A model generated the notes under the pieces. That model was not told where the DNA came from. It saw only the letters and a list, made by a program, of their open reading frames with translations, and made no database searches. A DNA stretch of 64,000 bases from Rhodovulum robiginosum (lineage in GTDB: Bacteria; Pseudomonadota; Alphaproteobacteria; Rhodobacterales; Rhodobacteraceae): positions 1 through 64,000 of the forward strand of contig NZ_RWGU01000039.1 of the NCBI RefSeq assembly GCF_003944755.1. Reading direction: 5' to 3'. Of the stretch, positions 4,032 to 4,448 are shown piece by piece. A program made the translations under genes and the position numbers. Every line of letters begins with the position of its first letter. Positions within the stretch are counted from its first letter, which is position 1.

Positions 4032-4060
4032 TTGCGCCCCGTGCGGAATGTTCTATTTAT
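4032..4060 (+). promoter_or_regulatory. Candidate sigma-70 promoter overlapping an SOS box
   Basis: TTGCGC at 4032-4037 and TATTTA at 4054-4059 are separated by 16 bp and could form -35 and -10 elements. The -10 lies inside the LexA box at 4050-4064. The predicted start point would fall at about 4066-4068, which is the ATG of the next open frame, so the transcript may be leaderless. This is an inference from spacing and consensus only. Confidence 0.45.
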
Positions 4061-4064
4061 GTTC
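4050..4064 (+). promoter_or_regulatory. LexA-binding site (alphaproteobacterial SOS box)
   Basis: The sequence GTTC-TATTTAT-GTTC is an exact match to the direct-repeat LexA operator GTTC-N7-GTTC of Rhodobacter and other alphaproteobacteria. It ends four bases before the ATG of the DnaE2 OB-domain gene at 4068. In many alphaproteobacteria such a box drives the imuA-imuB-dnaE2 mutagenesis cassette, which fits the identity of the downstream fragment. Confidence 0.75.
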
Positions 4065-4067
4065 CCC

Positions 4068-4448
4068 ATGGACGATCCGCCCCGTGCCTCCGCGGACTGG
4101 CCGCGCCCGCCGGCCTGCCTGCCCCATGCCCTGCTCGACCGGCAGCCCGCCGGCGCGCGGGTCTGCGTGGCCGGGCTGGTGCTGGTGCGCCAGCGGCCGG
4201 GCACCGCCAAGGGGGTGATCTTCGTCACGCTGGAGGACGAGACGGGGGTGGCCAACGTGGTCGTCTGGGCCAAGGTGTTCGAACGGTTCCGCCGCGCGGT
4301 GATCGCCGGGCGCCTGCTGCGGGTCACCGGCCGGGTGCAGCGCGAATGCGGCGTTGTGCACGTGGTGGCCGAAAGCATCGAAGACATCTCGCACATGCTC
4401 GACGCCTTGTTGCACCCTGACGGCACCCGCGCCGCCGACCAGCCCTGA
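4068..4448 (+). CDS. Orphan C-terminal OB domain of error-prone polymerase DnaE2 (truncated gene)
   Basis: The 126-residue product corresponds to the last ~100 residues of DnaE2, the error-prone polymerase III alpha subunit of the ImuA-ImuB-DnaE2 translesion mutasome. The OB-fold motifs are [38 protein letters not shown] and [20 protein letters not shown]. The polymerase, PHP and finger domains (about 900 residues) are absent, and no imuA or imuB is in the window. An SOS box lies 4 bp before the ATG at 4068, so what remains would be damage-inducible. Alternative in-frame starts (TTG 4032, ATG 4059) would lie inside the promoter/operator. It may be a deletion remnant, or a retained small OB protein. 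The frame is intact. Confidence 0.7.

Follow-up and report, generated by a model that had tools for sequence, protein, structure and literature searches.

A stand-alone OB-domain gene behind a LexA-type box is probably the detached C-terminal part of a two-gene DnaE2 in Rhodovulum and related Rhodobacteraceae

The closest described counterpart of the gene reported here is the DnaE2 (ImuC) mutasome. Its DnaE2-ImuB contacts have been modelled through the PHP and HhH regions (PMC12926913), and the open text of Timinskas et al. 2013 (PMC3919608) gives a C-terminal SRDF[H/R] motif for ∼77% of DnaE2 and mentions several DnaE2 sequences without an OB domain. Divided components are on record in two related settings: DnaE2X systems possess iPolY plus a separate ImuB-C, a division of ImuB that may be the ancestral state according to the open text of PMC12926913, and the cyanobacterial DnaE is divided by a split intein (PMC3919608). 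An OB-less DnaE2 is shared between the present system and that of Timinskas et al. (PMC3919608), where we found neither a separate OB gene nor a promoter for one. The open-access literature that we searched, which included PMC3919608, PMC6511836, PMC12926913, PMC6473078 and PMC9426580, notes the OB-less DnaE2 once and yielded no separate OB gene.

The system described here resembles the DnaE2 (ImuC) mutasome in that both halves belong to that family by sequence, homologues of imuA and imuB are present, and the genes carry LexA-type boxes. It differs in that the polymerase is encoded by two unlinked genes, that imuA, imuB, the polymerase core and the OB domain are all solitary, and that the C-terminal SRDF[H/R] motif is missing from the split form. 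With the DnaE2X systems it shares the division of one mutasome component into two proteins, but there ImuB is divided, whereas here the polymerase itself has been split by fission.

The window, a 64,000-nucleotide (64-kb) stretch of the Rhodovulum robiginosum genome, contains at positions 4068..4448 (forward strand) a stand-alone gene for a DnaE2 OB domain, 126 amino acids long with an ATG start and probably leaderless. The encoded protein matches the error-prone DNA polymerase model NF004225 at model positions 945-1039 of 1047 (E 3.8e-32), which outranks the DnaE1 models (4.8e-07) and marks it as an OB domain of the DnaE2 type. The OB fold, residues 32-107 (4161..4388, +), is placed by a match to PF01336 (E 6.6e-13) and by the predicted model. 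PHP, polymerase core and HhH region are absent from the ORF, with the profile match confined to the DnaE2 C-terminus; a preliminary description of this DNA was right in seeing only the DnaE2 OB domain here. The N-terminal segment, residues 11-29 (4098..4154, +), resembles the stretch ahead of the OB domain in the fused DnaE2 of genome G357, and W11, P12, P14 and P15 are invariant in an alignment of 15 stand-alone OB domains. The C-terminal tail RAADQP (4428..4445, +) is found in 6 of these 15, and none of them ends in the SRDF motif; fused DnaE2 proteins, in contrast, end in SRDFH in 22 of the 25 readable sequences (2 of 27 fused loci being unreadable) and in SRNFH, SRDFK or GRNFQ in the other three. 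Elsewhere in the window, positions 2659-2826 (+) look by eye like the start of an alpha/beta-hydrolase-type regulator that has been cut short, a possible pseudogene.

Upstream of the gene, an exact GTTC-N7-GTTC box, GTTCTATTTATGTTC, lies at 4050..4064 (+) and, as the preliminary description had stated, ends four bases before the ATG, which is at 4068, with three bases in between. The direct repeat overlaps the OB promoter, as in the alphaproteobacterial LexA regulon, and the genome encodes LexA itself (PF01726 match at C51:103781, with an exact GAACN7GAAC box ∼50 nt before it). The motif occurs three times in the window (a further exact match is at 20932-20946 on the reverse strand), against 1.25 expected from shuffles, and 10 of 100 shuffles reach three; the count was accordingly rejected as evidence by itself, not being significantly above chance. 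With a number so near chance, it is the conserved position of the box alone that carries weight. This we read from named OB loci, the best 80 of 584 candidates, at least four of which belong to the 15 genomes introduced below as split; 78 were readable by pattern, all of these in frames of <600 aa. An exact box precedes the OB gene in 75 of the 78 (in three, none is exact), with a start codon 1-5 nt past the box in 71 of these 75 and an ATG two bases past it in 53 of the 75 aligned loci. In the split genomes the OB box is exact (GTTCN7GTTC) in 13 of 15, the window's genome included; G013 has one mismatch, as judged by eye, and in G029 no exact box was found before the OB gene.

Alignment of the 75 promoters places a -35-like element at 4032..4037 (TTGCGC, +), whose positions -18 to -16 from the box start read T in 72/75, T or G in 75/75 and G in 67/75, and a -10-like element within the box at 4054..4059 (TATTTA, +; consensus TATNTT), the spacer between the -35-like TTGC and the -10-like TATNTT being 16 nt. 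The transcription start is thereby predicted to coincide with the start codon, and the mRNA is therefore predicted to be leaderless. The LexA-type promoter of the preliminary description, with its -10 inside the box, start point at the ATG and leaderless mRNA, thus stands in silico. A start of the frame at the TTG of 4032, on the other hand, is probably wrong; the TTGC there is the conserved -35-like element.

A profile search of the same genome returned three matches: a DnaE1-like protein on contig C11, the window OB domain on C4, and a DnaE2 on C36. The last, at C36:307629-310514, covers NF004225 positions 4-938 with 1248 bits and then stops, so that the two DnaE2 pieces of this genome are complementary (4-938 and 945-1039); no other OB match was found in this genome. 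The core gene ends at its own stop codon within a contig of 370,815 bases and is therefore not cut off by an assembly end. The genome search suggested in the preliminary description, for imuA, imuB and a full dnaE2, thus finds the first two present and DnaE2 complete save for its OB domain. The imuB of this genome (G000) lies in two pieces at the ends of two contigs; we rejected a split of this gene in favor of a contig gap.

When 61 genomes, this one included, were searched with the OB domain and with NF004225, both halves were present in 15, and 46 lacked an intact pair. A sixteenth candidate, G024, was rejected because its fused gene crosses the ends of its contig. The window's own genus accounts for 16 of the 61, eight Rhodovulum genomes having both halves and eight having neither intact. 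In all 15 split genomes the halves lie on different contigs or >700 kb apart on one contig, and one continuous DnaE2 polypeptide formed of them is absent in each. All 15 cores keep the LPLF clamp motif and the DIDVDF catalytic motif, the latter having been part of the criteria by which split cores were picked. Thirteen of the 15 have no DnaE2 besides the OB-less one, and in 12 of these the core frame is unbroken, the core of G028 lying in two overlapping frames; the OB protein for this reason looks like the partner of the OB-less DnaE2. The same count makes it unlikely that the OB protein is a dominant-negative competitor of another mutasome, as had been suggested.

Each of the 15 split genomes has imuA and imuB at separate places, away from the core, and LexA-type boxes accompany them: exact GAACN7GAAC before imuA in 15/15; exact before imuB in 14/15, with one mismatch in G014 (for G016, G020 and G028 the position of the box with respect to the start was determined manually); and, before the core, two exact boxes and 12 with one mismatch among the 14 readable genomes (G028 unread), mostly GAACN7GAAT, which departs from the consensus at one base. 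All of these boxes are oriented opposite to the OB box (GTTC...), which is also nearer to its start codon than they are to theirs. The ImuB of the split lineage (L104-L117) contains an insertion of ∼40-60 residues with a conserved stretch near SGDAIxQEARATRSRAxKR; it is present in 13/13 readable sequences, a count that leaves out G016 and the gapped G000, and absent from three ImuBs of fused cassettes. As to the surroundings of the OB gene, 9 of 17 loci have a convergent degP-like gene (GNSGGPL) at ≤2 kb on the downstream side, and all eight Rhodovulum loci have a divergent gene resembling 2Fe-2S ferredoxin upstream, both assigned by motif only.

A wider survey covered 394 genomes of the family from 393 genera. 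The best 150 NF004225 matches listed over these genomes contained no split core, and alignments of the OB domain and of the core tail replaced that model for counting. The OB domain is matched at 1e-12 in 348 of 394 genomes and the core tail at 1e-60 in 343. With E-value thresholds for split-like calls that were chosen after viewing the two-peaked distributions, the OB domain is split-like in 172 genomes, the core in 172, and both in 162, leaving ten with the OB domain only and ten with the core only. The 162 concordant genomes were taken from the thresholds, G357 among them being rejected since it proved to be fused, and the 20 discordant ones were re-read individually. G122, G175 and G417 turned out to be split; in G100 and G157 the core lies in contig-end pieces; G368 has an OB fragment only; and G119, G314 and G315 are fused. 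There remain five genomes with an OB gene and no whole split core (G090, G276, G361, G362, G398) and six with a core and no OB domain (G083, G103, G137, G181, G201, G219). Eight of these 11 unpaired genomes (three OB-only, five core-only) are incomplete or in ≥170 contigs. The other three look real: G090, an OB gene without a core in a 100% complete genome of 7 contigs; G083, a core without an OB gene (99% complete, 100 contigs); and G276, an OB gene beside a core reduced to pieces, with a fused DnaE2 elsewhere (30 contigs).

Among the matches listed, OB domains in short frames (≤520 aa) occur in at least 149 of the 394 genomes, and a split-like core accompanies 144 of these 149; the five exceptions are G100 and G157, where the core is in pieces, and G090, G361 and G398, where there is none. 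The preliminary description had named, as a case that would speak against it, related genomes with the short ORF and no trace of dnaE2 history. Such a situation does exist, but only in single genomes such as G090, and elsewhere an OB-less DnaE2 is mostly present. Named carriers of the OB gene include strains of Ruegeria, Roseovarius and Rhodobacter. In a survey of the class (385 genomes, 176 with an OB match, readings from the best 150 matches listed), the matches listed from outside the family show the OB domain in long frames; where the frame is short, it mostly lies close to the start of a contig. Two short-frame candidates outside the family were rejected as split, G704 as a DnaE2 remnant with SRDFH and G466 as a frameshifted DnaE2; the reading left out the frames of G601 (650) and of G565 (639, ∼1.4 kb from the contig start).

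A tree of 928 core columns joins the 15 split cores in one clade (SH-aLRT 100). A second tree, built on 612 columns, took in the G083 core and four further rows of the fused type and omitted eight distant fused ones. It too unites all 16 split rows in a single clade (100/99), with the fused G357 and G315 as weakly supported sisters of that clade (82/75). Because the split arose once, its co-occurrence pattern does not represent many independent events. The fused G357 protein reads ...HPVALLRARLTP, thirteen residues, WPRPPACL..., the OB domain and an SRDFH tail, the joint being LLRARLTP-13 aa-WPRPP. Its dnaE2 shares with the split cores an upstream GAACN7GAAT box, and no imuB is recognisable nearby. 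This DnaE2 (L251 9671-13744) is 1358 residues long, and its N-terminal half carries long Ala/Pro-rich insertions of low complexity. The split cores terminate 1-59 residues past the LTP motif (LSP in G026), and stand-alone OB domains begin 3-19 residues ahead of WPRPP or WPKPP. Taken with the G357 joint, these ends and starts place the break in the linker before the OB domain; no folded sequence is evidently missing, but the split form no longer has the SRDFH tail. In a model of a fused DnaE2 (mean pLDDT 80.8) the break point, matched by eye, falls in a loop at ∼957-962 between two helices. In G019 a fused DnaE2 occurs with imuA and imuB on another contig; the cassette can therefore come apart without the polymerase splitting. 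Overall, the sequences make a strong case for this history of the split.

As in cyanobacteria, a DnaE polymerase here comes from two separate genes. The cyanobacterial parts are spliced into one chain through their split intein, whereas in the present system the stretches next to the break, 1-59 residues on the core side and 3-19 on the OB side, look too short for intein halves, judging by length.

The OB gene is under purifying selection, with a median dN/dS of 0.31 over 28 pairs from eight Rhodovulum genomes. The ratio of OB to core divergence is 1.27 among 15 split sequences and 1.07 among 13 fused ones, in a comparison from which G032 was dropped, eleven more distant fused rows were left out and pairs with <3% core difference were unused. 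The similar ratios and the dN/dS value together indicate that the OB domain is not decaying.

On one alternative reading the OB domain would have been put to a new use after the split: the OB protein would be a free, SOS-induced single-strand DNA-binding protein, and the OB-less DnaE2 would work alone. The predicted model of the window protein has an OB-like topology at a mean pLDDT of only 59, and the folds nearest to this low-confidence model include STN1, SSB, RPA32 and aaRS OB domains; a PDB sequence search with the OB profile gave no match. The matches of the fused DnaE2 model include 2hnh, a solved structure of a shortened E. coli DnaE of 910 residues, which we take to end before the OB domain, and G090 keeps the OB gene without a core. 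We nonetheless consider a new use unlikely, in view of the near-complete co-retention of both halves, of a sequence that is still DnaE2-like (30 of 84 OB positions do not vary across the 28 sequences compared, split and fused), and of a match to the SSB family PF00436 that stays under its threshold (15 bits against a cut-off of 26).

Fused cassettes in split genomes and their relatives raise a second alternative, that both halves belong to an inert mutasome and that fused cassettes acquired later do the work. Two split genomes out of 15, G005 and G008, possess a fused DnaE2 as well, and G028 has its core in two overlapping frames. G007, with a solitary imuA, and G004, one of the Rhodovulum genomes with neither half intact, with a decayed split-type core, each have a fused cassette in the same genome, as if an older dispersed set had been replaced; the G004 piece (C3, L262) contains two stop codons and is 53% identical to the split core of G008, and no OB domain was found in G004 besides that of its fused cassette. 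In Dinoroseobacter shibae a fused cassette resides on a plasmid (PMC9426580), and the split system may be lost when a one-piece cassette arrives. An inert pair is nevertheless quite improbable, given the clamp and DIDVDF motifs in 15/15 cores, the OB dN/dS of 0.31, the boxes kept at all four loci, and the fact that in 12 of the 15 the OB-less core has an unbroken frame and is the sole DnaE2. Several observations belong beside these. Solitary imuA genes with an exact LexA-type box occur in G007 (L135) and G011 (L136), both Rhodovulum without a split DnaE2, and are possible relics of the dispersed system; the DnaE2 fragment at a contig end in G011 is of the fused type. An ORF that by eye resembles an IS110-type transposase is located immediately upstream of the fused DnaE2 in G005 (L060), and this DnaE2 matches NF004225 only from model position 21 onward.

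For an ORF that matches the DnaE2 C-terminus only and stands behind a LexA-type box, the preliminary description proposed that an imuA-imuB-dnaE2 cassette had collapsed and that its promoter had thereby become fused to the last part of dnaE2. This is hardly credible: the same genome carries the remainder of DnaE2 intact at another place, terminating where the OB domain would follow; the short gene recurs across many genera with a co-retained OB-less core, mostly behind the same box (exact in 13/15 split genomes and 75/78 named loci); its median dN/dS among Rhodovulum pairs is 0.31; the OB box differs in orientation and start distance from those of imuA, imuB and the core; and the fused G357 shows the joint.

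These findings lead us to regard the window gene as probably encoding the OB domain that was separated from the C-terminus of the cell's own DnaE2 (ImuC), a functional, SOS-controlled subunit that would act in trans. In an ancestor within this Rhodobacterales family, dnaE2 would already have stood apart from imuA and imuB. It would then have broken in the linker between the clamp-binding/HhH region and the OB domain. The core would have remained a solitary gene, and the OB domain would have become a gene in its own right at another locus, under a LexA-type promoter that is probably leaderless. DNA damage would induce both halves, and the OB protein would rebind the core, or the ImuA-ImuB-core complex, non-covalently. 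The shortened E. coli DnaE, without its OB domain, is an active polymerase, and the OB domain of DnaE grips the single-stranded template; rebinding would restore the grip that the domain gives in one-piece DnaE. The modelled PHP and HhH contacts with ImuB both lie in the core half, and the core should therefore still enter the mutasome.

A more speculative extension, which we hold only tentatively, is a two-key mutasome in which mutagenic synthesis would need two separately LexA-controlled polymerase halves. The free OB protein would be an exchangeable subunit, possibly docked by the insertion in the split-lineage ImuB, and its leaderless mRNA might time or limit assembly independently of the core.

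To genome annotation, such a system would appear as a small, unexplained OB protein and a polymerase of slightly reduced length. If the proposed reading is true, the family contains a C-family DNA polymerase that underwent fission into two unlinked SOS-type genes, and simple gene deletion in living cells would become a way to test what the OB domain contributes to lesion bypass.
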